Assembly: GCA_038049695.1 (NCBI GenBank)
Contig: CP142452.1
Span: 110,409,001-110,473,000, forward strand
Source: Cinnamomum chago
Lineage: Eukaryota > Streptophyta > Magnoliopsida > Laurales > Lauraceae
DNA: 64,000 bases
Reading direction: 5' to 3'
This document shows, in pieces, positions 20,855-56,863 of this stretch. A program made the position numbers and the translations under genes. The stretch's first letter is position 1. The number at the start of each line of letters is the position of its first letter. The notes below the pieces were generated by a model that saw only the letters and a list, made by a program, of their open reading frames with translations, was not told the origin of the DNA and did not search any database.

Positions 20855-23071
20855 ATGAGTCATGTTGATGCTGGGGGATTGAGTTTAGAGGATGTGGATA
20901 TGATGGTTGAGGAGGAAGATGTTTCAGAAATTCCCACACCAAGTAGTGAACCACCTAAACCAAAAAGAAAGAATCAATCTATGGTTTAGACTTCTTTTAT
21001 AAAGAAGTATGTTGGTGACCCACCACGCCCTAGGGCATTTTGCAAATATTGTGATGCTGATTATGCTGCGGATGGAAATAAGAATGGGACGAAAAATTTG
21101 TTGGACCATCTTACTAAATGTAAGAAAAACCCCAATCAGCTACCCCCAAAACAAGTCAAGAGGCAAAAAACTTTAGCATATGAGAAGGGAGTTGAGGGTG
21201 ATGAGAACCCTAGAAATTTGGTGTTGGCAAAATTTTTTGACCATAATCATGCAATAGCTCTTCGTCAAGCTTTGGCAGAGTTTCTTATTGTTGATGAACT
21301 CCCTTTCAAGATTGTGGAGTCTCCCAAATTTAGAAAATTTGTACAGATGCTAGAGCCTAGATTTCAAGTCCCATCTCGCATGACCATTGCTAGGACTTGT
21401 ATGGACATTTTTAAGGATAAAAAAGCATGGTTGAAGTGTATGATGAGGGCTTGTGATAGTAGAGTTTGTCTCACCACTGATGCTTGGACTTCGATTCAGA
21501 ATTTGAGCTATATGGTTGTCACTGCCCATTGGATTGACAAGGAGTGGAAATTGCAGAAAAGAGTGATTAGCTTTCGTTTGATTGATAATCACAAAGGAGA
21601 CACAATTGGGGCGCAAGTGGAGGAGTGTTTACATGATTGGGGAATTGACAAGATTATGACCATCACAATTGATAACGCGTCTTCAAATGATACAGCTATT
21701 GGTTACTTGAAGAGACATCTATGAAGTAATGTGTTGAATGGTCTTTACATTCACATGAGATGTGCGGCGCATATTATGAATCTTGTGGTTGGTGATGGGT
21801 TGAAGATAAATGATGATGCAATTACAAGGGTTCGTGATGCAATTAGGTATGTATTTTTTTTCATTTCTTAGTACTATGCATAATTCGTTTATTAGAAATT
21901 CGTTATTTCTTATAGTTGTTTTTTGTGAAATGCAATTAGGTATGTGCGGTCTTCTCCTGCAAGGCTTATCAAGTTTAATCAATGTGTTGAGAAGGAGAGG
22001 ATTGAATGTTCCAAGAGTTTGTGCATTGATGTCTCAACTCGTTGGAACTCTACTTATTTGATGTTGGATGTTGCTGAGAAGTATGAGTTTGCTTTTGATA
22101 GAATGGAGAGTGATGATGTTGATTATCGTCCGCATTTTACCGAAGGTGAGTGTGGGAAGAGGAACTTGGGACCTCCAACAAAAGAGGACTGGACAAAAAT
22201 AAGGGAATTTTGCAAGTTTCTTGAACTCTTTTATGATGCTACAGTGCAATTTTATGGTTCTTTGTATGTTACTTCGAATTCCTACTTCCATGGACTCTAT
22301 GGGGTGCATTCCCATTTGTGTCGTTATTCACAAAGTACGGACAAAAGATTGAAAGACATGGCTGATATTATGATGGTTAAGTACCAAAAATATTGGGGGA
22401 GGAATGACAGGTTAAATTTGTTGATATTTATTGCAAATGTTATTGATCCACGGTCTAAGTTACAAGTAATGGGACAAATGGTGAGGTTGATGTATGGTGG
22501 AATAGAGGGAGAGAAGTTGGTGGCCAGTATAAGTGATTTGTTTCGTGCATTGTTTGATGAATATGCGTTGGGGTTACCACAGGCTCAGGTGCATTCATCT
22601 AGTACTACTAGTGTGCCTCCTCCTCCTGGACCTCCTCGAGTGGTTGCGGGTTCTGGCAGCAAGCTAACTCTATTTGAGGATTATTAGAGCATGGCTGTGT
22701 CGTTTGGAACATATTCATCAAGTCCTAGTGCAAACTTAGAAATTGATCGGTATTTGGCTGATCCACTTGTTGCCCTAGACAAGAATTTTGACGTATTGAA
22801 ATGGTGGAAGGATAATGATTTACGATATCCCGTCATTGCTAGGATTGCACGGGATGTATTGGCTATTCCTATCTCCACTGTGTCTTCAGAGTCCGCTTTT
22901 AGTACGGGGGGACGTGTACTTGATCCATTTCGGAGTTCATTAGCCCCAGCGACTGTGGAGGCCCTCATTTGCACCCAAGATTGGTTGAGGCGTGCGGATG
23001 AAAAGGAACCAATTGACATCAAAGAAACTTTGGATTGTATTGAGAGTTATGACATGGATTCCGGTAAATAA
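20855..23071 (+). pseudogene. hAT transposase (zinc finger BED, RICESLEEPER-like), three in-frame stops
   Basis: About 705 residues with one 93-nt intron (21847-21939). Order: acidic N-terminus with a PKPKRK basic patch; BED zinc finger (FCKYC, then LLDHLTKC, about 21040-21120); RNase H-like catalytic core with LTTDAWTS and TITIDNASSND; a long alpha-helical insertion; and the hAT C-terminal dimerisation block, IARDVLAIPISTVSSESAF then STGGRVLDPFRSSL (about 22850-22945), ending at TAA 23071. Apart from TAG near 20986, TGA at 21722 and TAG at 22685 the frame is unbroken. All three fit C-to-T change of a CAG or CGA codon. The product would have acted in the nucleus on the element's ends. Confidence 0.9.
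21837..21945 (+). other. Transposase intron bounded by a 16-bp direct repeat
   Basis: ATGCAATTAGGTATGT occurs at 21837-21852 and again at 21930-21945. Splicing at AG|GT in both copies (donor 21847, acceptor before 21940) restores the frame DAIRYVRSS. The intron is 93 nt and T-rich. Confidence 0.8.
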
Positions 23072-36800: not shown

Positions 36801-39800
36801 TACACATGGCCAAGGTAGCGATGTAGGACAGTCAAGGTTCAATTCCACAGGAAGATTTTTTTGTTGCTATGGGTTTGTGTAAAATTAGGAATATGCGGTT
36901 CTATAGTATTTGGAACGAGTACATAAGAGGAAAATGTCAGGGAGCCTCCAACATGATAAGATAAAGTAATGATGTCTTAGATGGGTTTGGGCATGTGCAT
37001 AGAAGATAAGAAACCATGGAATGAAATTTCTATTGTTGCCAAGACGACTTGTCTAAATGATACAATGCCAGTACTTATCATGTTGGTATGACCCAACTAT
37101 ATATTGGAATGAAATCTCCGATGAAAGCACCATAGATCCAGTGATTTGGAAGGTGATGATAAAAAACAGTCCAAAAAACTGATCAAACACAAGAATCAGG
37201 AAATGGTCTTTCCTCCAATGGTGGAAAAAATGCTGAAAAATCTCAAAAAATCTCCAGAGAGACGCGCAAACCTCCTTGCAGAGGAATCCCAACCAATGAT
37301 GATCACCAGGTGAGCCCTGCAGTGATCACTTTCACACAACCAGGGACGTGCTGCTGCACCTTGATAAAAATAGATCTTCCTTCCAAGATGTATCAAAAAG
37401 ACAAACAAAAGGCACCAGTGGAAGGCCGGAAAGGAATCTGGTAATTTTGGAGTTGCTAATTCAAAAGTGAGTCCCTTCAGTCACATACAACAACTATCTC
37501 GAGCCGATGATCAAACCTTCACTATCTTTAAGCAAAAAACAGAGGGCTAGCTCTGATACCATATTACACATAACCCTTGTCACTCAATATTCAAACATAT
37601 GCTCACAAGTTGAATATAATTGGAGTGGAATTTAGTGCCTTCCAATGTGAGGGTTCATCGATCTTTACAGGATGCACTATGTTATTTAGTAACTTTGTGC
37701 ATCAGAATTTCTAATTTTGCAGCAATTATATCCCTTTTATTGGGGTGATTAAATCCTAAGAGGTTATTGTATGCAGTGGTGGACCCAGGATTTTCATTTC
37801 GGTAGGGCGAATGATGGTCAATTGAAAAAGTCAATCATACAACGGACTATCCAAGACTTTTATCTGAAGAGAACTGAAAAAATAAGACATAATCCATTTT
37901 TTATTCAAAACCCAATTATTGAAATCAACCACAGAAAACTGAAAAAAAAGGAAAAATCACTTACATCAACCCGCACAAAGAAACCTTTGATCTAACTATA
38001 CCATTAAAAAAAAATGGATCTAACTATCATTTTTCATGTCTCTTGCTACATATTAGGATCATCTAAAAGGATTTATATGGGAATTCTAGTCTATTTATCT
38101 GCTTAAACCATGGTACATAGGAGTTTGGATCTAAATGAAATTTCTATTGATGAAAAAAAATTATACTGAATACAAGTAGGAAGCCCCACTTTTATTTTTT
38201 ATTTCTTTGGTTTTGAAGTTCCTTTACCTGAGAGCTACAGAGGGGAGGCATCACACCCTATCCAGTATAACAGGAATGAAAGAAAAACCAGTCAAGCATC
38301 GCCCTTTTCTAGATAAACATCCATCTGAGCAGAGCTTTTCTAGCCCACCAAACCATTAATTAAGATGGAAGAGCATCAATTTCTCTGAAGCAATAAAATC
38401 CAAACAACCAAGTATAGCGCGCACACACATATATTACCTACAACAAATCCTAAATTCATTCAAACCAAAATATAACCAAAGAACCCACATCAATTTCACT
38501 GAAGCAATAAAATCCGACAAAATCACCACAACAGACATTGGCTTTCTCCTTGTCCAACAATCAAACCCAATATCTATCTAACGGCTAAAACTGAAAAATT
38601 TTAATAGCGAAGAGAAAACCCATTCGAGAATTGCACATTAAAAAAAAACATTTGAAACAGAAAAGAAATAGAAGAAGCAAAGATACCAATGGAAAGGTTA
38701 ACTGAATACAAAATTCATGAACAACCCAGCAGGCATCAAAGAAAGACTAAGGTTAATCAAACACCCAAAAAAAAAAACAGAAAATAAGAAAAATAGATAG
38801 AGGGGAACAGCCGAATAGAGATGGAGAGATTAGAGAAGAGAAAAGAAAGATAAGAGATTGAGAGAAGAGAGAGTAGATCAAGAGAAATAGTGAAGAATAC
38901 TTGCTTTGCCGGAGAGGAAGGAGACCGGAATCCGAATCTGGAGGAGGGGAAAGGCATTTAGGGCTAGGGTTTTCTATTGGGGAGAACTGGGAGAGCCAAA
39001 GAGGAGTTAGGGGCTTTTCAATTTTGAGGGTGGGGCATGATCAAATTTCAAAAGGGGCATGGGCCAGATGGGTATTTTTCAAATCTGACTGGGGCAGCTG
39101 CCCAACCATGCTAGTATGTGGGTCCACCCCTGATTGTATGATATGGTGCATATGTAGCGTATTGTACATCATGAATCTTTCAGTGTGGTGTTCCACAATG
39201 CTATTCTAATTTCTAATAGTGCATGTCATATACATAACGGACAAAGGGCATATACATGTGTTTATTTATGTAAATATTTTATAATTACAAATATTAACGG
39301 ACAAACAGAGGGGCTGGGTTGGGATGTGCCCTAATCCAGCCTTCAAGGTGGTGGGCTTTTCCAAATCGGTCCTACTATATGCTCAGGCTTTAGCACAAAA
39401 AAAGAGCCCCCTTTTTTGTGGGCTTTGGCAGGCCTTGTCAAAGGGTCAGATTGACCTGCATATGAAGGCTACAACGGGTTTCACAATGAAGCCAAAGGAT
39501 GGTTGGTAGGTTGCGAGAGAATGCATATAACACTAGTACTGTGTATCACTGTATCATGCATGATTCATTCTCTGATTGATTTTTTAACCAGTATTTGCAG
39601 TAGGTTTACTTACCATTTAAAAAAAACATAAAAAAAACCCAAGCAACAAATTCTTCTTCTTCTCTCTCTCTCTCAGTTGGCATTTGAAGTTGTTTCTGCT
39701 ATATAGGAGCAAAATTGGATATAATACTTTTCATTGTTACCGAGAATCACCATCTTGTTTTTTTATTGAGCAGGATGCATTGCCAACATTTCCAGATGAA

Positions 39801-42800
39801 GAGGCATTTTCATGCATTGAGAGAGAATTGGGACTGTCAATTGATTCCATTTTCTCATCCATATCTCCATCCCCAATTGCAGCAGCCAGTTTGGGCCAAG
39901 TTTACAAGGCTCAATTAAAGTATTCTGGACGTGTTGTTGCTGTGAAGGTGCAAAGGCCTGGTATAGAAGAAGCTATAGGACTGGACTTCTATCTGGTACG
40001 GGGTCTAGGTTTTCTGATAAATAAATATGTTGACTTCATCACCAGTGATGTTGTTGCTCTAATTGACGAGTTTGCCCGAAGAGTGTACCAGGAGCTGAAT
40101 TATGTCCAGGTACTCCTTAATTCTAATGCATGAAAATGCTATTTGTTAGTTTATCATCCTCCAATTTTGTTTAAATGAGAATTTCTTGTTACTAGTATGT
40201 GCATGTTATTCGTTTATGCAAAATTATCAAATGCAATGGTTTGTACTACAATAACCCATGTTGTGGCCCGCTGACCACATAAATGCATGGTTCATCATCT
40301 TAGTCTCATACCATCTATTTGGGGTTGTCTTTCAGAGTCCTAATGTAAAACTATAGAAAATCTATGTCAAATAAATGCATTGTTGATAGTTTGATATAAG
40401 GGGCAATGCATGGATTGCATATGGCTCAAAATATCACCTTCATTTGATGATCAAGAGTATTTCATGGGCATATCCAAGATAGATGGCTCGGACAATTTGG
40501 TTTGATGGTTACATTTTACATGGTCTCGATTCAATGGTTGTGATCATTAAATCAAATTGAAATTTAGACCATAGGTAATCTTTCGAGTACCCTTTCTATC
40601 TGTCTACCATGTGTGCAGGTTGCTCAAGTGTGTACAGCAGTGTCAGTTGTACTACACTACTACGATTTTAGTGGTTGGACTTGATGATTATTTTGTTTAA
40701 ATATGTGGTTATCTGGTTGCTGAATGATTGAAGCTATGTCAACCAATCACTTCATATGTATTTATCTCATTGCTGACTGATTGACGCCATGTTGAGCAAC
40801 CATGTCATCTTGTTCTCCAAGTTCTGTATCTTAATGTTATTAAATAGTACTCTGCTTTAGGATGGTCAGCCCAAGGTATAGGCCCAGGCCTAATATTCCG
40901 ATGGTTAAGTGGGCTGAGCCTGGATTTAAACCTTTTCATAAGTCTGACTAGATGCCCCAGTAAAGCGTGATTAACAGCTCAGAAGAAACCTAACAATTGG
41001 CTGATGGGCTGACCGTGGGCATTAATTTTACCCTTGTGGGCTGGATGTGGACCTGAATATTGGGCCCATGAAACAAACGGTCTGGACGTTGACAAGCTGA
41101 GGACAGCCCAGGATACTTCTGTTTAGTTTTGATTGGGACAGTTCTTTTATGTAGGAGGGGAAGAATGCACGGAGATTTAAGAAGTTATATGCAGACAAGG
41201 AAGATGTCCTTGTTCCAGATATCTTTTGGGATTACACCAGTGCAAAAGTTCTTACAATGGACTGGGTAGATGGTGTCAAATTAAATGAGCAAGAAGCTAT
41301 TGAGAGCCAAGGGTTGAAGCTCTTGGAGTTGGTGAACACAGGTATTCAGTGCAGCCTTAGGCAGCTGTTAGAGTATGGATATTTTCATGCAGACCCTCAT
41401 CCTGGCAATCTTTTGGCAACACCAGAAGGAAAGCTTGCTTTTCTTGATTTTGGAATGATGAGTGAGACCCCAGAGGAAGCAAGATATGCTATTATAGGCC
41501 ATGTTGTTCACATGGTAAATCGTGACTATGAAGCTATGGCCCGTGACTACTATGCCTTGGATTTCTTGTCCCCAGATGTAGATGTATCTCCAATTGTGCC
41601 AGCACTCAAGAACTTTTTTGATGATGCCCTTAATTCTACTGTGAGCGAGCTCAATTTCAAAACGCTGGTGGATGGTTTGGGTGCTGTTTTATATCAGTAT
41701 CCATTTACTGGTGAGTTCGCATTGCATGTTAATAACGACTTTAGGGCCTTTTTAGTTCTCTCGTGTGTTGCTTTTTTCCCATAGATTGTTTAACTAAATA
41801 GCTGCTTCACAGATGTTTCCGTATGAGGAACAATTTGAGCTTACTTGGCTCTCCAAATTCCTTTCAGTTCCTGCCTATTATGCATTGATATTGAGATCGC
41901 TCACCGTGCTGGAAGGTTTGGCTCTTTATGCTGATCCTAATTTTAAGGTCCTGGCCGCTTCATATCCATATTTTGCAAAAAGGCTTCTCACGGATCCAAA
42001 TCCTTACCTCAGAGATGCACTAATTGAGTTACTTTTCAAGGATGGTAGATTCAGGTGAGTGCATGATTTGCTAATAGTTTTAATGATTTTGGTTTTGGTT
42101 TGAGTACCACCCAAAAATCTGTTTCCTTTGCTTGGTTACAAGCCTCCTGGGGTTGATCAGTTCTATCTGTTAAAACTCGCAAAAAAATCTCTAAATTTAT
42201 GTTCCCTTTGCTGCATGCAGGTGGAATAGACTTGAGAACTTGCTTGTACAGGGGAGCAAGGATAGAGATTTCACAGCTAGAGAAGCTTTGCAACCTGTTC
42301 TAAAGCTACTAATGGGCCCTGATGGTGAAGAGCTACGTGCTTTAGTTGTTAAAGAGGCTATCCGAGTCACAGAAGCTATTGTAATAGGCACAACAATTGA
42401 TACATATAATGCCATTCCTGAGTTTCTGAGGTCTCTATTTTTCAACAGCAATGCAACTGGACCTTTTGCAATTAGTGGAAGTGAACAAGATAGCATGTTG
42501 GAACTTAGAGATCGTGTGTACAGAGTATGGAGTCTTCTGAGATCTTCGGAAAATTTTGACCCAGCCCTTCTGCAGCCTATTTTACAAGTAAGAAGCTAGA
42601 TAGTATTATTATACTGGGCAACACACTGTTTATAGGTTTAGGTAGTGGGATAATTGAAAATTGATTCCTGCATAATTTAAAGGTAACAATTGTGGATTAG
42701 CTGTGGCATTTGTTTGTTGTAGTGGTCATTTTAGAACTCCAGACTAGGTATTCCAATAAGATGCTGACCTGATGAGCATGGTCTGAGCAGGTCCTTCAAG

Positions 42801-42916: not shown

Positions 42917-44672
42917 AAGCTGTAAACTAAGAAGTATCAGTTCAAGAGTAAACATCTGTAAAATTTTTATGATATAATTAGCAACAGCTATGGGTTGTTC
43001 GCTCTCCATTCTTCATTCATTCAGCCACTAAAAAAAAAAAAAAGACATGATGGATTGTGGGCTCTTAAAAGAATGGCTTCGGATGGTGAAGAAGTAGAAT
43101 TCACAAAGCCACCTCAAAATAGATGTGTTGAGGCTTTGATGATGATAATTTTGCTCCATGCGACGAGGCTTACCCATGACCCATGACTGTTCCAACGCTT
43201 TCATGTACAGAATGCTGCTAAAATCTGATAATTGCCCCCGCTTTTAACTGTTCATCCAACCTAAATCCTAAACCATTAAACTTAGAGCCCTTTAAATCAT
43301 AGGTTAGGATAATCTGATGGTTTTCCGTTCAGTCCTATTCCATTATGAGACATTTCTACCATTGTGTACTCTATTCTCGGTACATGCCACCTTACCTAGG
43401 ACTCAATTCAACCCAGGTAAGGAATTTTTTTTAATGCTTGCTGGGTGTTTTTTCATTCTAGCTGAGATCTTCTACCCTACGATTTTTTTTCTTGCATGTA
43501 TTTTGTATAAATTTTTATAAAAAAAAATCATTCCAAAGAAGTTATTTATATTTTTGGGCGTTTTATTATTTCAAGCTACTAGGTTCGTAGCATTCATATT
43601 CCATTTACAAGTTCATTATTAGGAGTCGTTTTAAGATTAAGAGATGTCTTGACTTGTTAGTTTTATAAAGACACGCAACAAGGGTCTTTAATTTTTCTTA
43701 CCTAAAAAAAAGGGTCTTTAATTTTTTTTTTAAATCTGCATTGGAGAATTTTTGAAGGGGTCATTCCTCTGGCCCACTTTCTGATTTAGAACACAGGCAC
43801 TGCCACTCACACAGCGGTTTTCCAACCAGCTGAATTACACGTTGGGGAAAATTTGTATTTCGTTTATCTCATTGAATAGAATGAAAATATGATTGATTTG
43901 TAGGGCTTTTGGTTTGAATGCTGACTCAAGAAAAAGGAAAGAGGGTAAAAGCCAATTTTATTTGCTGCAGTCCTGCATTTCAAGGAATAACAACACTTTT
44001 GAACGACAGGTTCACCAAAAGTTGTACGATTATTCCGAATAACATTTAAATCATTCGGTTTACAATCTGGAATTATATTGTTTCTTGGCCGTTCTAAACA
44101 ATCATTTGAGTGGTTTTTTCCCAAGAACATGGGGGCGGGCTACTCATTCAAGGCCTCTTCCTATAAGCCCTAACAAAGAATGCATTCTGTTTGGGGATAT
44201 TGGAAGGGGATACTACTGGATGTCCATTTGAAACAAGTCTGCTAAAAGAAGTCCATTTTGAAACTTTTATAAACTCCCCAAAACTCAAGCCCTACTTTTT
44301 GAAATTTCCCTATTAATTTATTTTTTGAGTGGTTTAAAAACTTAAGTAAGCCACTTGTTGATCCCCTCGCGCGTTTGGCAAGTTAGACCCTCATAGGGGA
44401 TCCTGACGTGACACACATGTGAGGCCGCATCCTGTTGAGAGTCAAGGCTGCATGCATCCATGTAATGTAAGTTTTATCTCGTAAGTGTCTGGTGCCCCTT
44501 GGCTGCTGCATTTCAGCCTCAAATGGGACATCTCTTTTGGCTCCTCATATGACCAATGTAAAACAATCCCGATTATAGAGAGAGAGAGAGAGAGAGAGAG
44601 AGGACACCTACGAGACCAGCTATCTCTTTATCCGTCCGTTATCCATCGGAGTAGCAAGAGGAAGAAGAGAAA
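42917..44672. other. Intergenic DNA between ABC1K3 and the NDH locus
   Basis: ABC1K3 3' UTR to about 43010, then AT-rich DNA. The last 100 bp are the leader of the next gene, with (GA)n at 44577-44602 and a start context AGAAAATGG. No gene recognised between. Confidence 0.5.
44577..44602. repeat. (GA)n in the 5' leader of the NDH locus
   Basis: About 13 GA units some 70 bp before the start codon at 44673. GA/CT tracts are common core-promoter or leader elements in plants. Confidence 0.85.
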
Positions 44673-44807
44673 ATGGCGTCGGTATCTCTCCTGAAGTCGT
44701 CTCTTGTTGTTGACAAGTACGAGTGGGCTAAGTCTCAGCCCCTCCTGCTCCCTTCTGCCACAGCATTCCGCTGCAACTCATTTGCTGACGAGGTCGTGAA
44801 GAACATG
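44673..44807 (+). other. Candidate shared transit-peptide exon (PNSB4 exon 1, possibly also PNSL2)
   Basis: ATG 44673 opens 45 codons: MASVSLLKSSLVVDKYEWAK, then a Leu/Ser/Pro/Ala-rich part, ending ADEVVKNM before the donor ATG|GTATCT at 44808. It ends in phase 0. Joined to 56042 it reads ...VVKNMNRSYRSKRGSL, which aligns with the N-terminal region of Arabidopsis PNSB4 (KNVNEKRERNLMRGSL, from memory). Joined to 50530 it reads ...VVKNMGRGYRSKRSSL. It is the only start exon recognised in the locus. Confidence 0.65.
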
Positions 44808-47800
44808 GTATCTCCATCCCCTCGCTTCTTTTATTCTCTTCCCTATTCGTCTTTATTATTATTATTATTATTATTTAATCCAAAAGACATGATATTGAAC
44901 TGTAGACTTGATTAGAATCTAGAGCTAGAGGAGATCTCTGTTTATTTTCTTTTCCTCATCAAAAGTAACTTCCAGTGAGAACTCTAAATATTCACGCATA
45001 AGAATCTAGCCCTAATGTAACATGTTGATTTTTTATTATTATAAAAAGTAATAATAAAGATATCAATTTATTTTAAAATGGAGATCATTTCTCTTCTTAT
45101 GGGAAAAAAAGAGAGAGCAAAAGTCCGGGTTGAAGGAAAAATATAAGGGATCGGAGCTCAAGCACTCCATCGTCGTCTCTTCTTGACTTTTCTGTGGCAG
45201 GTGGTTGAAAAAGAAGAACCCAACTCATTTCCAACGAACTCATCCTCACCAACCCTAGAGAGAAGAAAAAAAAGAAAAAAGAAAAAAGAAAAAGATCACC
45301 GATACACACTATAATTTAACTTGTGCCACACACAACATGAAGGAGCTTCTATGAAATGGGAGGAAAAAAAAAAAATTTCATTATCAGTTACCACTGTATC
45401 CTGAGGTACGTCTTAAGCAGAGTTAACTTTAGGGAGGTTGTAGAGAGAAATCTTCCGCGCTTTACCTCTACTCGTGCATAACCCATTTGATCCTCTCCCA
45501 TTTTAGCTCTCCCTTCGTATGGGAATAAGAAGAATATGTCAATATTGAAAATTGAAAGGCCCTTACAGAATACTGAGAGGATTTTAAGAACAGACCTTAA
45601 TTTTTCTATTGCTAGAAAGAATTAGCAAATTAAGAAAAATCACGGAAGACTTGCATGTAGCTCACACTTATTCAGATCCATTTCTCCCATTGCTCCTGCA
45701 TCAAAGTTGCTGTCAACCACCTTATTTGAGAGGTAGTGCTCTTCATCGGTCAGATGAAATCAAAATCCTGGGGGTAATTCTACATGGACATCTAATCTAG
45801 TGAGAACTGGATCCTTTCACATATCTTACGACATCTTATCCCAATTTGTAGCCTCTTGTTCTGGAAGCATGAAAATCGACCCAAAATTTATATGGGCAGG
45901 GTAGAAAAAGAACCAGTGGTGGAGCCTGCTTTTCTGGAAACACACATGTGACTCTCTCCAGATGCATATGGGTTCTGGAGAAGACTAAAGTTAACGATGC
46001 GACTATTAAGTAACCTCTAATTTCTCTATCCAACAGGAGGTGGGTAAAGTTAAAAGAGTCTGGTTTGTAGAAATAAAACAGAAAATTTTCTTTGAAGTAA
46101 AACTGGGTTGTAGCCCGTAAGCTTTTGTATGCAACATTCAACTGTAAAAGGCTCCCAAATTAGACTTTAATTTTCGTTTTGAAGGAAACATGAAAATATC
46201 GTATGATTAGATTGGTTTCCCAACATTTTGTGTTGTACTGACCCATGGAAAACCCAAAGGAGAATGGTAGTGGCCAACATGAATGTTCAAGTTCAAGAGG
46301 CATGAATATTGTTAGAACTAAACACCAGAGATGAAAAGAAAGGAAGAACCAGAAAAGTCTCTATCCCTGAAAGAATGAATGTAGTTGTTAAGTAAAAATG
46401 TTCTGATGTTGAGAAGGCCACCGTATACTGTTTTTGGAAGGGACTGAGATGTGGCATGTAAAGAAACTGAACCACTGAGAAAGACACTATTGGGGAATAA
46501 AAAAAAAAGATCAGCTATATCTGGTGTGTTGTGTCCCTAAGAGATCATTGTGGGGCTCACTCTGCTCTTTCTAAACCCTTAAAATTAATTCCTCCAATCT
46601 AGAAATTCACAGATATCACTTTGATTAAGCATCAGATTGAAACAAGGAAGATTATTTTTAAATTACAGTTTTGGGTTACTGCATTTGTAGTTATAGTAGA
46701 TATGAAAGTAGGAAGTAGTTGTGTTTTAATTTAAAAAGTTAGGTTCATGTTTGAATTTGAGACATTAGAAGTGGTTAGTAGTTATTTTCTACAGTAAGTC
46801 GATAGCTACATTCATGTTAGTCAGGGTGTTGTATTTTTTTTACAATCAAGTCGACGCATTTCCATTGAAACTTCATACCAACTTTTTTTTTCTCATCTTC
46901 AATTTTTGGTATTCCTTCTCTATTTTGCATTTTTCTTGAAGATAAAAAAACTTTGTTCGAAAACTTCACTCTTACACCCAGAATAGCCCATTTCAGAGCC
47001 ATGAATGAAGGGTCATATCATCTGTAGGTAACATAAAGATAACATCAAGTCAAGTTTGGACCGCACAACTGTCATCAGTGAAATTAGAAATTCTCTTGTT
47101 TCTTATGAATCTTTGGCTCAACAATTGTCCGGGTGCTCCATTTAGCGGAGGTGATGGATATGCGCTTTTCTCTTGTAAGAAAAGATCACAAAAGGCAGAT
47201 GAGAAAAAAGACCATTTGATTAGCCATGAGAATGATGAGACCCATAATGATACTTCTACCAAGCATGGCAATGAAGGTGGAACATTTGGTGATAGTCGAA
47301 AAGTTGTCAAGTGTTACCAATGTGGTAAAATTGGACATGCCTAAAATAATTGTCTAAAATTAAAGGGTGACTACGTAGTTGGAAGGAAATATGAACTAAT
47401 AAGATGAACATTGGAGGAAGTGCTTTGTGGTGGAAATAAGCATGATGGGTGCCTTAATGTCAATCAATGTAGAAGATGATTATATAGTTGACTCTAGTCG
47501 CAGATATCATATTACTGGAATAGCATTTTTCATGCTTTTGACACTATAGTGGCAACAACGCAATCATCATTGTGGATGAAAGTCTTTCTAAGGTGTAAAG
47601 CTTAATTGAAATCAATGCATAGTGATTTGGACCTTTTCCTACTCCATATTCGAGTTTTTGTTACACGCTGGTAATTGTGGATGATTTTACAAGATAAACA
47701 TGGTCCTATTTTAGAGAAAAAGCAGATGCGCTTTTCAAAATTTATTACCATTGAAAATTTGTGTGGGTGCGGGCATGGGGCCCAGGGATTAGTCCTGCCA

Positions 47801-50246
47801 AAGGTGGGGATACCCTGAGATATATATATATATATATTTATTACCATTGAAGGTGTACTTGATAAGATCGGATGGTTGAAGACTCTGATTATAGAGGAGA
47901 CTTTAAGTCAAATGAGTCACTTCATTTCGTCATGAAAACGATATCAAGGGAGAGCTCACTTGTGCCTCTATACCAGAATAAAAATGGTGAGGTGGGAAGA
48001 AACATCTGGCAAATGTCAGAGACTTGTAAGACGTGGTTACTTGCCATGTTCTTGTGCTGAATGAAATGACAACCAAACTAGAAGCAATGGCCAACCAAAT
48101 TTTTTTTTTTTTGAACTATGATGTGTCATCTTACTATGGTAAATGCTGCTGCTATTTGGAGTGTTGGTGATAATACCCATGTTCATGTTCAGCTGGAAGG
48201 AGGTGATGGTGAACCCAATGCACTTGAAGTGTCGAAGTGTTGGTGGACTCCTATTTGCCATCAGGGCTGAAAAGTGAAAGGAGAGAATGATGTTTATGAT
48301 GGACAACAAGGGCAGCAAGATGACAACTATATTGCTAGAGGAGACTGTACGACCTCTTGAAATGTCTGCAAAATGAATTGTCAAACCAGCGTGTTATGGG
48401 TATAGAAACTTGCTTAACACAATTTCATGTTTTCTTTGTCAGTTCAGCCAATGATGTTGAGCCATCTTCTTTTGGGAAAAGCAAAAGACCCCATGGAGTA
48501 GGTTCTGGCCATAAATGAGGAAATGAATGCTCGCATAAAATATGAAATATACGATCTTGTGCCTAGACCTGAGGACGTTAAACCAGTTAGATGTAATGGG
48601 TCTACTGGACAAAATGAAGGTGGATGAAAGTATTGGAAAAACTTAAAGACACTTTAGAAAGTACCATTTGAGCATATAAGAATGAAGTTGCGGGTTGCGG
48701 CTCATTTCCAGAAAATTACTTCTGAGTGGGGATGTCGAAACTAAAGAAATCTTTTGATTATTTTGAAGTTGTAGTTGGATTATGATGCAGCCCGATAGAA
48801 GTCTAGGGCCCGCAGGCCCCCTTGATGGATCATCTAATGGGGTCCACATGATCCCTGATTCAATTAGAGATCCCTATCCATCTAAATTAGTAATATCAAT
48901 TAGTTACTTAATAGGAATTGCTTTCTAAAATTCTAATTTGATTAGGAATAGGTATGTCACTAATTCCAATATTATGATTAGTTTTAGAAACATAATGTTC
49001 TATTATAAACAAAAGAGATATATAGTTTTTATCATGCTTATTCAATCAATAAACCATCGTGAGTTATTTTGGCGTATATAGTTTTGAGTGTTCTTTTGTG
49101 TGGAATCCCTTCATTGGATTCGATCAACCTCATTTGAGAGGTTGGCCTACTCAATCGAAGGTCCGGGGCTGCACCAGATTATTGCATGTAGAATAGGAAG
49201 TTAGCGGTGTATTTGAATTTAGAAAGTTAAGTTCATGTTTGAATTTGAGAAATTACTAGCGATTATTTGTCATTTGCTACGATAACTATATTCATCTGTA
49301 GTTAGTATGTTTGATTTTTTACAATCAAATTAATACATTTCCATTGAAACTCCTGACAGGCTTTATTTTGGTCTCTCTAATTTTTTGTGCCGTACTTCTA
49401 GGGTTGGTGTGAACTTAGGTTCCACTATTTGGTAAGCAAACTCTGTTGGTACTTGGAATTTATCGTTCTTCATTGTTTCAAACCATCGGTGAATATCAAT
49501 GTGATATTCAAGTGCATAATTATTAACGGGGATGGTTTGATCCAACAGTCTAGATCTATGATACCCGAATACTTGTACAAGCCCAATGTATTTGTATTGG
49601 ACCGATACGACACTTGCATTGGTACCTGATACTGCGCCGATACTTCTAGAGAACAAGTTTAACATATCCTACTTATGAAGTCCTTTATTTCATACAGTTT
49701 TTTTAATAGTTTTACTTCTCACCATAAACAGTGATAGAAAGGGACGAAAACAATGATAATTTCATTGATTAAAAAGTGATCTAAAGAAAAAATTAGGACA
49801 CCCGTAACTGTATCCATGTCCTAGATTTTCAAAAGTGAGGAGTCTTATCCCCAATTTCCGTATCAGTGTCTGCACCCCTATCTGTATCTGGGCATCATAG
49901 GTCCAGTCTTTCTTGCAGCTGATTGGGTTCAACCCAGACTTGAACTCTTTTAAGCATGAACTTGACTGAAATCTAAATATATATACACCATATGCCGACG
50001 TTCCGACCCAAACTAGTTTTCCTCGCTAGTTGTATGAAACTTGTATGAACCGGAGTTGATACACAATTTTTTGATATCGACAAATATAAGTTGAATATAT
50101 TGGACATTGTTATGAACATAGTACAATCTCTTTTCATTCCACTCACTTGAAAGAAATGGTAGAGGCCATCATGGTTTAGGGTAATTTCACCATGTCCAAG
50201 CAAAATGTTTACAACTCTACTCTTAGAGATGAACCATTTCAAAAAA

Positions 50247-50285
<39 letters not shown>

Positions 50286-53200
50286 CAATTTGGTATGTCA
50301 ATGTTTAGTTTGAAGGGAGGAAAAAACAAATGAGCAAATGTTCAATCTCTGGGTGGGATACTGGCTTGCTAGAGGTAGATGAATCCAATTTTACAAATTT
50401 GAATCATTTCACTCTATAATCCAATTTTATTAAATCAAATTTCATGAACAAGTGCATAGAGATGGGTTCCTTTCAAATTTCCACGTGTTAATCATATTGT
50501 ACATGTTCAACGATCGTTAGGGATTGCAGGGTAGAGGTTATAGAAGCAAAAGAAGTTCTTTATTGATTGCAAGGCAAAAGTTGATCATCCTAGTATCCAC
50601 TAGTGAGAAAAAGGCAACCCGACGAGAGTCAATCATGTTAACCTTGATGGCATCCACATTAGCACTCGGATTGCAACTATCAGCAACACCACCGCTAGTG
50701 GTAGCGAAGGAGCTATGGGGGACCCGTTCGTTCATCAAGGAACGCTTCTTTCAAGAAGGGCTCTCTCCGGAGGAGGCAGTGGCCCGGATCAAGCAAACGA
50801 CCGAGGGCCTTCATGCAATGAGACCCATGTTGGAGACCATGTCATGGAGATATGTCATCTTCTACATCCGCCTCAAGTCTGCATACCTCTCCTCCGACTT
50901 GAACAATGCACTCCGTACTTTGCCTGAAAGTCCTCGTCGGACATCTTACGTCAAGATTGCCAATGAGTTGGTCGATAACATGGCTGAGGTATATATTTGC
51001 ATGTGCACCTCTCTCTCAACCCTCCACTTTTTCTCCTTACCGTTTCATTTGTTTTTCTTTGCTTCAAGTGCTTATTGGTCTTACTTCCTGATGACTCCTA
51101 CCTCTTAGCCAGCTTCAATGTCTCCCACTTCTATTTTACTTAATATCTATCAAACCTTTACAAGAAAATTGACACCTACGACCCAACCAAACACCTTCAT
51201 TGTTTAGTCAACTCGGCAACTAAGTAAATGCATAGAAGGGGTCATAGTACTTGCCTCATATTTCGGAGTAAATATTAGCCACTTCTAGAATGGGCTTTAT
51301 TTGGCTATCAAGTCCGGTCGGACTTTTAATTAGCGGGCTATTCTAGGCCCGAGTCCTGCCTCTGCTTTATAAATAGATGGGTAGGATGGGCTTGGGCAAG
51401 CCCACATGTTAGATGTAGTAGATGAGTCCAAATGGAATTTTGTTTTTCAGGAACCCATGTAAAGAGAGATCTATTCAAGTGAAGTGAGAAATTGATTATA
51501 TTAAAGCTTCTTTTTTGGCAGTTGGATTACTACGTCCGTACACCAAAAGTATATGAGTCATATCTATACTATGAGAGGACACTCAAATCACTGGATGACT
51601 TGGTTGCTCTACTCGCCTAGTAAGGAGGTGCTGGATTCCATTAGCCATCAAGTGGATATGTCGCGTGCCTTTTCACATGCAATGATCTTTATGTTTCCAT
51701 TCCATGGTCATGTAATCCTTCTCATTCCAATAAAATTTTAATTTGATGGGTGTAAGAACCGAATTTTCTTCCCTTTTTTGAAACAAGTTCTATGTAATGT
51801 ACCTATGTCGTCATTAATTAAATGCTTAGCGCTAGAAATTTCTAAAATATATGTAATGATGATCTAGAAAGAAGACAGAGTATTGAAGTGCTTGACACTA
51901 TGGGGCTGATGATCTCTGGAAAAAAAAAAGGATTTCTTTTTAACCGCCTTTGCTTGAAGTAACACTGTAGGGGCCCATCTTTCAAGTGTGTATATAAAGA
52001 TATATTTCTAATACGTAATGGTTGGACTTTTCTTCGATTTTGCTATTAAAATTACTCTTTTAGTAATGCCATATAGTTGAGAGATCAGGGTGACTACTGT
52101 ACGTTCTGAGCTAGGCGTTGGGTGCTAGAGGCACTAACATAGAAGCACCAACATCCGTCAGGGAGGCTAGCACTAATGCCTCCCCTGAACTCTCTTGGAG
52201 GTGGGGTGGCCTCATTTTGGGGTTTCCGGGATTCTCGACTCTCCAACTAAATCTCTAGCTATCAACAAGCTTCAAGAAAGAAGTCTTGAAGAGCCTTGAA
52301 GAGCTCAAAAAATCTCAATAAAAAACCCTAGTAGAAGAATGCAAAGAAACTTGGAGATCAAAGCCAAGTTGAATACTCTTGGATTCTAGTTTCTAGATCC
52401 TAGAAAAGTGGGAGTCACGAGATGTTCCGTAGACTTCACTCTTTATTGAGATTGTTTCCCGCGTTGTCGCCTATGGACAAGGGTTTAATTTTCAATGCCG
52501 GTCTTCGTATTGATCTGAAGCAGGATGAGTTGGTGCTGCTTGTCTGGTTTGCGCCACTCGTGCTAGACCAATATGGGTTTACCGGTTTTAAAAGATCACA
52601 CAAAAAATTAAGAAATCAAGAAAAATTAATAAATAATAGGATAATGATAAACAAGTGTGAATTTAATACATAGTTGTATAATAACAGAGATATTTCATTA
52701 TTGTTAAAGCTAATGCTATGTTTTTTGATAAATGATCAAATTTTATGTCACCCAAAAAATAGAAAAAAACAAGACAATGAAAACTCCAACGAATAAGGAA
52801 AAAAAACACCTAAAAGAACGTATACATCAAAAGTAATAAAAGTGTGAAAAACTCATTCCTTGACAAGACCGTCTGCCATTGAATTAGCCCTCTTAAAATA
52901 TGCTGGGAAAAAAACACCCATATGAATTGAAACATCCTGCACCTCCTCCATCCAATCCGCCAGCCTCGAAGGATGAATAACCTTCCTAGAACCCCATTGG
53001 ATAAAAGAAAAGGAATCACCTTAGAGGATAGGATTAAAACCTCCCATTCTACACAACTCATGAGATCCAATCAGAAGAGCCAACAATTCTGCTTCATTTG
53101 CATATGAAGAATTAACCGGTCCTGAAATCTTTTTAATAATGTTTCCATTCCAATCTCTGACGGCACTAATGATACCTCCTCGTTGAACACTTTTGAACAA

Positions 53201-56200
53201 AACTACCATCAAAGTTCAATTTAAAAAATTCTTGGAGGAGGATGGTTCCACACTAATCTTTGCACAATTCCAGGACACCAACACCCTTTTAAAATACATG
53301 CCCTAGTCCTATTAAGATCTTCCAGAGAGATACCAACAAACTCCTTTTAATTACACACCCATTCCAATATAGTCCAAACAATGGACTCAACAATCTCCTC
53401 AATAGATTTCCTCTTGTTTCTAAACAGTCTACTGTTCCTCTCCAATCAAAGCTTTCAAACAGTAGTATAAAGAACTAACTTCCACAAGATATTACCACAA
53501 GCAACCTTACTTCGCAAACGCCATTGCAGAAAAAGATCTTCCATAGTCCTAGGCATAACTCAACTCATATCAAAGAATTCTAACATAGCAACCCAAACTA
53601 TATAAGCAAAATGATAATGATATAACAAATGTACTGTTTCCTCATCCTTTAAACACATAGGGTACCCATTTACTGTAAAATGATTTCTTCTTCGCAACAC
53701 TGTCAATAGCCATAATTTTATGCTGCCTCGCCACCCAACAAAAGACCAATACTCTTGGTGGAACAGAGGGATCCCAGAAAGATTTCCAATTTTCTCGTCT
53801 ACTAGAACTGTTAGTCAAAACATTATAAAATGACTTATTAAAAACTGACCTTTTGCATCAGGTTTACAAAGCCTTTCATCAGCTCTGCCAATTGACAAAT
53901 ATACCTTGTCAAGAATGCTAAGTATACCAGCAAGGTCAAAACTTCCATGTCGGTCAAGTTCCTCCGATATGAAAAATCCCAAACTTTGTTTCCACCAGAA
54001 CCACAGATTCTCAATAACAAATATTAGTTTGGGAACTAATTATTCAACATAAACTGCCCACACTACTAATCATGCCAGGATCTAACATGATGACCATCAT
54101 GAACCCCATAACGAATCCATGGATCAAAGTTCCCCTGAACAGAAATAACAGACTTCCATATTGTAGAAACCCTATAATCCTGGCTCGGAATACACCAACC
54201 ACCATTACCCAACTTATATTTACACAATAAAAGCCGCCTCCAAAATCCCTAACCTGGCTCCCCCTCCCTCCATAACTACTTTCCCAACAAGGCTTTATTT
54301 ACCTTATCAATAGGGCGAATACTCAAGCCACCTTGAACCAAAGGTTAACACACCTCCTCTCATTGAACCAAATGATACTTCCTTTTTTCAACAGTGTCAT
54401 TTCAAAGAAATCGCGCTAAATTTTCTCAATCCGGCAAGTAGGTCATAAAAGGATCATTGAATACATACAAAGAAACTCAGTGAGGTAAGTAGAGTCAACT
54501 CAGTGACTTGGAGAGTCAACTTGGGCTATTGAGTTATTTAATATTTTAACTTGGGTGTGGAGTCATCTTGGTTTTGAATGATACTGTTTCATCCTTACAT
54601 TGGTAACAAGTTCGCATACTTTTGTAAAGACTTGTAGATCCTTTAATATAATTTATCATTACTGATAAAAAAAAAAGATAGATCAATGCATATCAACTTA
54701 AAGACAGTGACTCAACTTAGAATTGAAATGTTTAAACATGGTTGAGTCTTGAGTCTTAAGAAGCAACTAGCTAAATCATATGTGGACCATCAAACAATCT
54801 TAACAGCCTTGATATTGGTTGTTTAAAGATTATATGTGCTCTACACATGCTCTAATTAGTCCCATTGTCAATTAAATATTTGCCAAGCATATGTAATGGA
54901 TAAGGGGAGCGACCATCATTGATTCCAAAATTTCTTATTGTACTAAAACATAGATAGTACTTCCTTCTGGTGAAACATATTTGGTAATAGAATTCATATT
55001 GTTTGAATTATTAACTTCATCTATGAATAGAGACCTGAAGTCAGATATGGAAGAGTAATGACATCGCAAAGAAAAAAATAGAGAGAGAAGTTCAAAGAAT
55101 TCTCATTTCATTAGGTGGATGGAAGAAAGTGTTTGTTTCAAGAAAACTCAATTGGAAGAGTTCATGGATCAATTAGTAGCGATGCAAGGAAGGAAAAGGA
55201 AGAGGTGAACAGTGCTGCTTATTGTAATAGCAGGTGAAGGAGATTTCTCATCCTTTTATTTTGGGCAAATGCCTTGCAATGGCTATAACATGGTTGTCAC
55301 ATCCCTTGTGAAAAGGTTAAAAACCATGGGGGCTTGAACAATGGGGAGTCCATTATTTTAGTATTTGTGCACTTCCTCCTTTTGTTTCATTGACTGAAAA
55401 TATGGTACACATGACATTCATTTACTGCAATTTTATGCTTAGGGCCACTTAATGAAGAGAGATTAATGGATTGTTGATTTTACTTTGTTGATATCCACTT
55501 ACAAAAATTCTCTCCAAACCAATTGGTGGGACTGTCCAAAGGATTTATCTTTAGAGTCCGGGTCCTCTGAGGTTTGGACTCACAACAACATCATGAGACT
55601 CCTTAGCGGAGCCAACTTGTGAAAAATCTAAATGGCTTAACCCCCATATTTATGGGCCTTCACACAACTCTACTGCTGTGAATTTTGTGAAGGCTCATAA
55701 ATATGTGGGGCACTTATTTTGAGTTGTTGTGACATTATATAATTTGGCCTTACTAAGTACTCTCATGAATTTATCTATGTGCACGCACGTGCAGTTTGGT
55801 ATGTTGATCTTTTGTTGTGGAAAACAAGGGGTTTGTCACTAGGAAAACAAGCTCTTGGAGGAACACTGGTAGGCTTTGGATAAACAAATCCTTTCATTTC
55901 ATTGAAATGGGTACCATTTCACTCGATAATCTAATTTTATCAAATCAAATATTTTGTAGTAGAAGGAGATGAGTCCATTTCAAATTTGGTCAATGTGCTA
56001 TCATAGTATGCATTTTCAGCAACAATCTTTAGGAATTGCAGAATCGAAGCTATAGAAGCAAAAGAGGTTCTTTATTGAAGACCACTGCTCTTCCACAATG
56101 GCCTCTTCTGGCAGTTCTAGTTGAGCACGTTCAGGGTCAAAGAGATTTTATAACCGAAAAGACAGTTTGGCATCTGAATGACCAAACTATAAAGAATGTC

Positions 56201-56863
56201 TGTAAGTGTTCTACTTGTCTTTACCCCTTTAGTTTTCTGAGTTATTAATTTATGATAGATGGTAGTGGGCAGGAATGAATTTATCATTGGATTGAAACTA
56301 GGAACTGCTATTGCAGATACCATGTATATCATGTTCACCTGTTGGGGATGCTGTTTTTTTGGATCCACCAAAGTAAGTCCTTGGGTCATCGGAAGCATGT
56401 CTTTATTCTTCACGAACTATTTTGCTCTTTGTTTCCTCTCTAGTACTAAAGATATCCATTGGATATAGGATCCATTCTATGATGGAGAACAGTATAGGAA
56501 AGATGGTGGAGATGGAACTGGAAATTGGGTTTATGAGAAGGTATGAGATTCCATCTCACTCTCACCTCATCCTTAAATAACGAATCATCCATCCATACTT
56601 TCATTCTACTGAAACTCTTTTTTTTTTTTTTTTTTTTGGACTCCATTCATGTGGCTGGCTGACCCCTGAAAATATTGAATAAACTCAACTGCGTACAACC
56701 ATCATGATAACTTGGCTGGTGGCTTTGTATTTCGTGGAAGCAGCAAGAGGACATTGAAGAGAGAGCAAGGGCAGAGCTATGGCGAGAGGAGCTGATTGAG
56801 GAGATCGAACAGAAGGTTGGAGGGTTGCGGGAGTTGGAAGAGGCAGGATCAAAGAGAGACTAG
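44673..56863 (+). CDS. PNSB4: PNSB4 (NDF6), chloroplast NDH subcomplex B subunit, 5 exons
   Basis: A subunit of subcomplex B of the chloroplast NDH-1 complex (cyclic electron flow around photosystem I), anchored in the thylakoid. Exons: 44673-44807, 56042-56201, 56317-56372, 56469-56540, 56744-56863; 180 residues (Arabidopsis about 174). Seen: transit peptide; FITEKTVWHLNDQTIKNV; a hydrophobic segment with YIMFTCWGCCFFGS; DPFYDG...GDGTGNWVYEK; and a charged C-terminal helix ARAELWREELIEEIEQKV then GGLRELEEAG. All splice sites are GT-AG and phases agree (0, 1, 0, 0). Intron 1 is 11.2 kb and contains the PNSL2 exons, a Copia fossil, SINE and LINE. Exons 2-5 are certain. The assignment of exon 1 rests on frame, on the N-terminal resemblance and on lack of another candidate. 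Confidence 0.85.
44808..46650. other. First part of NDH-locus intron 1
   Basis: AT-rich, with an ATT repeat (44850-44875) and a polypurine block 45258-45295. Short frames at 45600-46140 look like decayed repeat sequence. No alternative start exon for PNSL2 recognised. Confidence 0.4.
47756..47836 (+). mobile_element. Short SINE inserted in the Copia fossil
   Basis: 81 bp flanked by an exact 15-bp duplication TTTATTACCATTGAA (47741-47755 and 47837-47851). Contains GGGATTAGTCC (B-box-like) and ends in (TA)n. Size, duplication length and tail fit a 5'-truncated or very short SINE. Confidence 0.75.
48783..49176 (+). mobile_element. Solo LTR inserted in the 3' LTR of the Copia fossil
   Basis: 394 bp beginning TGATGCAGCCC and ending GGGGCTGCACCA, which are inverted-repeat-like TG...CA ends, flanked by a 5-bp duplication GATTA (48778-48782, 49177-49181). 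It lies inside sequence that continues the 3' LTR of the surrounding Copia remnant, so it inserted later. It is related in inverted orientation to 36470-36630. Confidence 0.85.
49400..50283. other. NDH-locus intron 1, central part
   Basis: A minus-strand frame ending at 49363 contains YALEYHIDIHRWFETMKND followed by KFQVPTEFAYQIVEPKFTP, protein-like but unrecognised. A (TC)n microsatellite is at 50250-50283. Confidence 0.35.
50284..50557 (+). repeat. Copy 1 of duplicated intron end, splice acceptor and exon start
   Basis: Aligns with 55795-56076. Best part: CATTTCACTC(T/G)ATAATC(C/T)AATTTTAT(T/C)AAATCAAAT, then CAAATTT, then TTAGG(G/A)ATTGCAG, then the coding start TATAGAAGCAAAAGA(A/G)GTTC and TTTATTGA. 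Similarity is strong over the last 170 bp and weaker upstream. It stops inside the exon, at the point where PNSL2-specific sequence begins. Confidence 0.75.
50530..51620 (+). CDS. PNSL2: PNSL2 (PsbQ-like, PQL), chloroplast NDH lumenal subunit; start exon probably 44673-44807
   Basis: A PsbQ-like subunit of the lumenal part of the chloroplast NDH complex. Exons 50530-50988 (acceptor ATTGCAG|GGT) and 51522-51620 (stop TAG). Seen: GRGYRSKRSSLL shared with PNSB4; twin-arginine EKKATRRESIM and a hydrophobic stretch ending before AKELW, a thylakoid-lumen (Tat-type) signal; then the PsbQ-like four-helix domain WGTRSFIKERFFQEGLSPEE, AVARIKQTTEGL, MSWRYVIFYIRLKSAYLSSD, and DYYVRTPKVYESYLYYERTL. An in-frame TAG (50518-50520) lies just before the acceptor, so no start is available upstream without splicing; with exon 1 the protein is 230 residues (family about 190). 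The intron after NMAE is retained, so this is not a processed retrocopy. No lesion seen in the frame. Identity is firm; use of exon 1 is inference. Confidence 0.87.
51729..51735 (+). terminator. Polyadenylation signal of the PNSL2 transcript
   Basis: AATAAAA 109 bp after the PNSL2 stop codon, followed by a T-rich stretch. It would end a short transcript inside PNSB4 intron 1. Confidence 0.55.
51740..52690. other. Intron/intergenic DNA after PNSL2
   Basis: No gene recognised. 52090-52260 is GC-richer and repeat-like. A short frame at 52422 begins MFRRLHSLLRLFP, superficially a targeting peptide, but leads nowhere. Confidence 0.35.
52690..54400 (-). mobile_element. LINE (L1-type) 3' remnant
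   Basis: Minus-strand pieces include LSIRPIDKVNKALLGK (about 54330-54285, end of the reverse-transcriptase domain), a zf-RVT-like stretch, and the RNase H segment GGIISAVRDWNGNI and NEAELLALLIGSHEL (about 53190-53060). The pieces lie in several frames with stops, so the element is an old 5'-truncated copy. It lies in PNSB4 intron 1 in antisense orientation. Confidence 0.75.
54401..55794. other. Last part of PNSB4 intron 1
   Basis: AT-rich, no known repeat or gene. The frame at 55131 (MEESVCFKKTQLEEF) ends at a GTGAAC donor-like site but in a phase that does not fit exon 2, and it lacks transit-peptide character. Confidence 0.4.
55795..56076 (+). repeat. Copy 2 of duplicated intron end, splice acceptor and exon start (PNSB4 exon 2)
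   Basis: Partner of 50284-50557. Includes the acceptor AATTGCAG before 56042 and the first dozen codons NRSYRSKRGSLL. In PNSB4 these codons continue into the conserved KTTALP segment, so this copy is probably the original. Confidence 0.75.

Follow-up and report, generated by a model that had tools for sequence, protein, structure and literature searches.

In grasses, SDH2 (SDHB) and RPS14 have been described (PMC1543663) to share one primary transcript and one targeting exon, from which two mitochondrial proteins are generated by alternative splicing, one gene being located within an intron of the other. There, the guest moved from the mitochondrial genome and makes use of the SDH2 targeting peptide. 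A comparable arrangement is reported in PMC8941745 for the mangrove Bruguiera and for Malpighiales, where a nuclear SOD gene gives rise, through alternative splicing, to the chloroplast-targeted protein RPL32; in this case, the guest was transferred from the plastid genome, and the systems to which the partners belong are unrelated. The SOD–RPL32 pair was split by duplication instead in Hypericum, Populus, and Salix. That source also cites RPS7 of Passiflora, which acquired its transit exon from thioredoxin m by exon shuffling.

The locus presented here was found in a window of 64,000 nucleotides (the whole stretch of DNA analyzed) from Cinnamomum chago, and it is very likely one transcription unit giving rise to two chloroplast NDH subunits, PNSL2 and PNSB4, through alternative splicing of a transit exon borrowed from an aldolase gene. 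Similar to SDH2–RPS14, it would combine a common targeting exon with alternative splicing, as read from the sequence and from gene models, and one gene lies within an intron of the other. In contrast to that system, both partners are nuclear and belong to one complex, each appears to have given up its original targeting exon, and the shared exon comes from a third gene. As for Passiflora RPS7, the transit exon originates from an unrelated gene, apparently also for a plastid protein; however, RPS7 is the one recipient as cited, whereas here a promoter piece, exon, and donor were taken over together and would serve two recipients. The first-pass annotation of this DNA knew of no such description for NDH, and our search of the open-licence literature, judged by titles and the beginnings of abstracts, likewise found no description of such a case of a shared exon among the papers listed, up to 20 per query.

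Exon anatomy and identity of PNSL2 and PNSB4

All coding exons of the locus are located on the plus strand. Exon 1 (44673–44807) comprises 45 codons, encodes the transit peptide MASVSLLKSSLVVDKYEWAKSQPLLLPSATAFRCNSFADEVVKNM, and ends in phase 0 with the donor ATG/GTATCT, not a strong match to the consensus as judged by eye. At a distance of 5.7 kb downstream, it is followed by the PNSL2 coding exon, featuring a lumen signal and the PsbQ-like domain (50521–50988, with in-frame acceptors at both 50521 and 50530), and by the last PNSL2 exon with the stop codon (51522–51620). The PNSB4 exons start 11.2 kb downstream of exon 1. The order of start exon, PNSL2, and PNSB4, in phase 0 and with the translations given, was already recognized in the first-pass annotation, which had placed PNSB4 exons 2 to 5 in one interval, 56042–56863. 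This interval was retained and resolved into exon 2 (56042–56201), exon 3 (56317–56372), exon 4 (56469–56540), and exon 5 with the stop codon (56744–56863). The PNSL2 acceptor, previously set at 50530, possibly needs correction to 50521, as Gly-Leu-Gln follows directly after exon 1 in the avocado and Cinnamomum models, which fits the acceptor 9 nt upstream. Exon 1 is open to the stop with both sets, yielding 230 amino acids with PNSL2 (acceptor 50530) and 180 amino acids with PNSB4. Inspection of the sequence also revealed AATAAA at 51729–51734, 109 bp beyond the normal PNSL2 stop, where it may serve as the poly(A) signal of the PNSL2 message.

Both downstream exon sets thus match the phase of the one exon 1, and neither was found to have a start of its own. 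The in-frame stop just upstream of the PNSL2 acceptor, noticed previously, was located as TAG at 50518–50520, 9 bp 5' of 50530, and a second in-frame TAG occupies the corresponding site 9 bp 5' of the PNSB4 acceptor 56042 (56030–56032). Within the PNSL2 exon, methionine first occurs at residue 39, numbering from 50521, and thus inside the lumen signal, which includes an Arg-Arg pair (signal and signal type assigned by eye); PNSB4 exon 2 is devoid of any methionine. Because of these upstream in-frame stops and the lack of a usable early methionine, neither PNSL2 nor PNSB4 seems able to start alone.

Both identities were determined by profile and structure-database searches. PNSL2 matched PF05757 with 121 bits and the solved PNSL2 chain 7wff_g with an E-value of 9e-58, and the top three of ten PDB sequences for this query were PNSL2, clearly ahead of PsbQ and PNSL3. 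For PNSB4 (NDF6), all three PDB matches were PNSB4 (9grx_4, E 2e-49; 7wff_d, E 4e-40; 7eu3_9, E 9e-28). In 7wff and 7wg5, the PNSL2 and PNSB4 sequences are each represented by two chains in two entries, that is, by one chain each per entry. Exon 1 alone as query yielded no match in the PDB search.

Intron 1 harbors direct repeats (46709–46910 and 49194–49388, 74% identical) bounding what is probably a decayed LTR retrotransposon on the plus strand (46709–49388, element type assigned by eye). A zinc-knuckle-like stretch was also seen by eye in this region.

Origin of exon 1 and of the acceptor segments

To trace the source of exon 1, aldolase genes were located via PF00274, which gave 17 matches in the genome, exon by exon, and the regions around three of them were compared. 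These alignments identify the aldolase (FBA) gene on C3 as the source of the shared exon, whose promoter piece, 5'UTR, and donor were copied along with it from the 5' part of that gene. Exon 1 matched the transit exon of this gene (start at C3:16197269) with a tblastn E-value of 3e-12, and positions 44650–44779 aligned with C3:16197247–16197378 at 75% identity over 133 bp (blastn, E 1e-18); the first exon of the C4 FBA gene was a poorer match (tblastn, E 4e-7). Upstream, the captured promoter and 5'UTR extend over 44478–44672 on the plus strand, the outer limit being set by eye on a longer alignment, and include a piece (44499–44536) with 89% identity to C3 FBA over 38 bp (blastn). Downstream, the donor and intron start (44808–44837, plus strand) are also FBA-derived (blastn, 76% over 66 bp, 44774–44837). 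The longer alignment of the captured 5' end with FBA scored 328, and the best of 100 shuffles reached 183.5.

The captured promoter contains the 20-bp motif AGCCTCAAATGGGACATCTC at −158 of the exon, which is identical in C3 FBA at −249 and kept at 15 of 20 positions in the C4 FBA paralogue at −162. The CACGTG box of C3 FBA (−282) has no counterpart within 600 bp 5' of the captured exon. Both the C3 and the C4 aldolases are presumably plastid isozymes, and the C3 gene is apparently plastid-type, as suggested by their sequence and by the transit-like first exons. Compared to the C3 exon, the captured one is about 14 codons short, and cleavage of the transit peptide is uncertain because the absent part is where we presume that aldolase gets processed.

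An origin of exon 1 from PNSB4 itself was considered and rejected, since the PNSB4 N-termini inspected in other plants (MAE.IMGFTMPKP... and alike) are unrelated to it by eye and aldolase matches it. Accordingly, the claim that one transit exon may serve two NDH subunits was kept as regards the sharing, which is well supported by the avocado models and the single copies found, and was given up as regards the ownership of the exon by PNSB4.

The two acceptors were described previously as near-identical, and the segments around them indeed showed 76% identity over 168 bp within the window (E 1e-25). Copy 1 (50287–50566, the likeness reaching to about 50572; plus strand, outer limits by eye) comprises the tail of an exon 1 relic, an intron tail, the acceptor, and the start of exon 2; copy 2 (55793–56084, plus strand, outer limits by eye) was taken as the original intron tail and exon 2 start of PNSB4. 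A genome search with 50405–50600 gave matches at the two acceptor places only (E ≤ 0.01), and the segment was accordingly rejected as a dispersed repeat. The coding start after the acceptors is identical at 31 of 37 bp between the copies and PNSB4-like (YRSKRGSLL, compared to KRSKRGSLL in Magnolia), and the copy before PNSL2 was therefore taken as the duplicate. Beyond the duplicate, the ancestral PNSL2 sequence possibly sets in again close to where it once began (LIARQK vs. TIAKQM in Magnolia, by eye; the placement by the aligner differs). A derivation of the acceptor intron tails from aldolase introns was also tried and rejected, as none of four comparisons with 60 shuffles each exceeded every shuffle. 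The scores, with shuffle maxima in parentheses, were 67.0 (86), 90.5 (93.5; shuffle mean 75.9), 76.0 (85), and 79.5 (94); of these, 90.5 is high, yet below the shuffle maximum.

Upstream of the PNSL2 acceptor, the stretch 50156–50374 on the plus strand reads MVEAIMV*GNFTMSKQNVYNSTLR...CSISGWDTGLLE, with two in-frame stops and a CT repeat. It matched the PNSB4 N-termini of Ranunculus and Tasmannia with tblastn E-values of 0.004 and 0.045, respectively, in 13 kb. Its two-part profile score of 12.9 bits was the best of the window (next 5.2) and was reached by none of 100 dinucleotide-shuffled windows (best 9.7); its best single-part score of 6.1 bits was not significant, as shuffling gave higher values in 4 of 20 windows. 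These comparisons strongly indicate that the stretch is a broken relic of the ancestral transit-peptide exon of PNSB4. It is located further upstream than the intron tails of about 160 bp 5' of each acceptor that were first tried as decayed PNSB4 coding sequence, for which 4 and 7 out of 60 shuffles, respectively, were equally good.

The suggestion that PNSL2 entered PNSB4 intron 1 as a guest did not hold in this simple form, given that the PNSL2 start is a duplicated piece of the PNSB4 5' end, that exon 1 is aldolase-derived, and that the two genes have adjoining locus tags in Papaver and Ranunculus. A gene nested in an intron by insertion, with its own 5' end and an exon ancestral to the host, is contradicted by the first two of these features.

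In the PNSB4 isoform X1 of Tasmannia lanceolata (P0148), GLSLHLMKDEGLQ is found at roughly the place that corresponds to GLQ in the laurel acceptor sequence (by eye). This isoform suggests that intron 1 of PNSB4 and its acceptor may be ancestral, and that splicing there may readily shift to an upstream acceptor.

Several other features were observed in the window. Exons of an ABC1-type atypical kinase are located 5' of the captured aldolase module (39684–42599; PF03109 in 41257–41781, the other two open reading frames being assigned by eye). Remains of a hAT transposase were seen at 21098–23071, with PF05699 in the open reading frame 22691–23071 and no Pfam match for 21098–21721. A 554-amino-acid open reading frame at 6355–8019 carries an exostosin GT47 domain (PF03016), and a clamp-loader (DnaX)-like gene, which we take to be perhaps of the STICHEL kind, is encoded on the minus strand at 3770–5110 (PF13177, PF22608).

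Related genomes, copy number, and rival explanations

Homologue searches, of which the best 120 of 351 matches for PNSL2 and the best 120 of 268 for PNSB4 were considered, revealed the same arrangement in avocado. The gene models at the avocado locus AAC387_Pa03g4670 comprise P0003 (PNSL2, 233 amino acids) and P0123 (PNSB4, 180 amino acids), which are identical in their first 45 residues, 42 of these matching exon 1 of the window. Over the whole query, identity between window and avocado amounts to 95% for PNSL2 and 97% for PNSB4. The avocado T2T genome was annotated by BRAKER3, using ab initio predictions together with those from transcriptome and proteins, and the RNA originated from leaves, stems, and fruits (PMC11220182). 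Judging by the gene-name style (Pa##g####), the AAC387 models probably correspond to this annotation, and AAC387_Pa03g4670 would accordingly be RNA-seq-aided; no paper naming AAC387 was found. For Cinnamomum micranthum, a single fused model of 363 amino acids (P0004) carries the same exon 1 (41 of 45 residues identical), and a query with residues 1–60 of P0004 retrieved, out of 14 candidates, just this protein itself and P0003, with no aldolases.

In Magnolia, Tasmannia, and Aristolochia, the N-termini of PNSL2 and PNSB4 are conventional and mutually unrelated (by eye), so the change to exon sharing probably occurred within the magnoliids on the side of the laurels. The neighborhood of the two genes is probably old. 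Among the matches listed, PNSB4 and PNSL2 have neighboring locus tags in Papaver somniferum (044144 and 044145, respectively), the corresponding tags in Ranunculus cassubicifolius are 008952 and 008950, and the contigs bearing the two genes are equal in size in Magnolia sinica and Macadamia integrifolia; these adjoining tags and equal-sized contigs underlie the assessment. Many other species among the matches listed have the two genes on differently sized contigs, as judged by eye (e.g., Nelumbo, Tasmannia, Aristolochia fimbriata, and Tetracentron).

The genome searched comprises 1.06 Gb in 14 contigs, and copy searches scored the best candidates. A PNSL2 query of 91 residues matched the locus itself and two places of 29–30% identity, taken as paralogues. 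PNSB4 without exon 1 matched the locus exon by exon, with one weak match elsewhere (E 0.09). The first-pass annotation had proposed a search for a second, conventional PNSL2; among the best candidates scored in the genome, none was found, nor was a second PNSB4. Start exons were sought in the introns by scanning for phase-0 ATG-to-donor stretches of 30–90 codons with a few donor patterns, in comparison to 50 simple shuffles.

It is quite unlikely that PNSL2 or PNSB4 starts from a separate first exon that escaped detection, with a promoter inside the intron, and that exon 1 is unshared. Transit peptides are poorly conserved, very short exons or unusual donors would escape the scan, and the eight candidate ATGs in 44808–50520 exceed the shuffle range (0–6, mean 2.0). 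However, all eight are located at 47.2–48.8 kb within the retroelement-like stretch and are not transit-peptide-like by eye, no PNSB4 candidate at all was obtained in 51621–56041 (shuffles: mean 0.9, range 0–6), and the old PNSB4 exon 1 is broken by stops. Moreover, the avocado models assign the shared exon to both proteins. These models likewise bear on the idea of a single polyprotein, in which exon 1, PNSL2 minus its last residues, and PNSB4 would be fused via a donor inside the last PNSL2 exon. P0004 of C. micranthum is such a chain, and the same GT is present after position 51602 in the window, but the donor GTTGCT is far off the consensus by eye, PNSL2 retains its normal stop with AATAAA behind it, and avocado has two separate proteins. 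A predictor restricted to one model per locus would generate such a chain, and a lumenal and a membrane-arm subunit, as we take PNSL2 and PNSB4 to be, could hardly function as one; we regard the fusion as highly improbable. Scarcely more can be said for a fossil arrangement, in which one gene is silent here and exon 1 serves just one of the two, be it PNSB4 or PNSL2: neither reading frame is disrupted, both are nearly identical to avocado at the levels given above, and each gene is the sole copy found in the genome.

The sharing of one transit-peptide exon by both NDH subunits is therefore considered well supported, though not proven, and the avocado gene models strongly indicate that both isoforms are in use, although the fused C. 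micranthum model speaks against it.

Proposed mechanism and implications

Under the preferred reading of one transcription unit for two subunits, PNSL2 and PNSB4 seem both to have lost their own transit peptides and to depend on the borrowed exon. The pre-mRNA would be processed along two routes. In one, exon 1 would be joined to the PNSL2 acceptor and the transcript would end near 51.75 kb, after the AATAAA at 51729, yielding lumenal PNSL2, whose own lumen signal would be preceded by a stromal transit peptide. In the other, exon 1 would skip PNSL2 and be joined to the closely similar PNSB4 acceptor, and PNSB4 would be imported with the transit peptide alone. Alternative polyadenylation probably accompanies the splice choice; the similar acceptors would be in competition, and with fast splicing, the early poly(A) site is expected to favor PNSL2.

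As regards its history, PNSL2 and PNSB4 may have been neighboring genes before a duplicated PNSB4 5' end displaced the PNSL2 start, such that PNSL2 borrowed the PNSB4 transit peptide. The aldolase 5' end would then have arrived upstream and the PNSB4-type transit exons would have decayed, although the order of these last two events is a guess. The site of the PNSB4 exon 1 relic agrees with the prediction of this model and is counted in its favor. The fuller picture is put forward tentatively: it holds that the two subunits are made solely from one unit under an aldolase, i.e., Calvin-cycle, promoter, that acceptor choice and early polyadenylation set their ratio, and that transit peptides were replaced serially (that of PNSL2, that of PNSB4, and that of aldolase).

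If true, exon sharing would be more than a stopgap for genes newly transferred from organelles, as two nuclear genes would have surrendered their targeting exons and become alternative halves of one gene. Since both products belong to one complex, with one chain each per entry in 7wff and 7wg5, the locus would offer a natural test of whether splice choice balances subunits, and its relics would document, step by step, how transit peptides were replaced.
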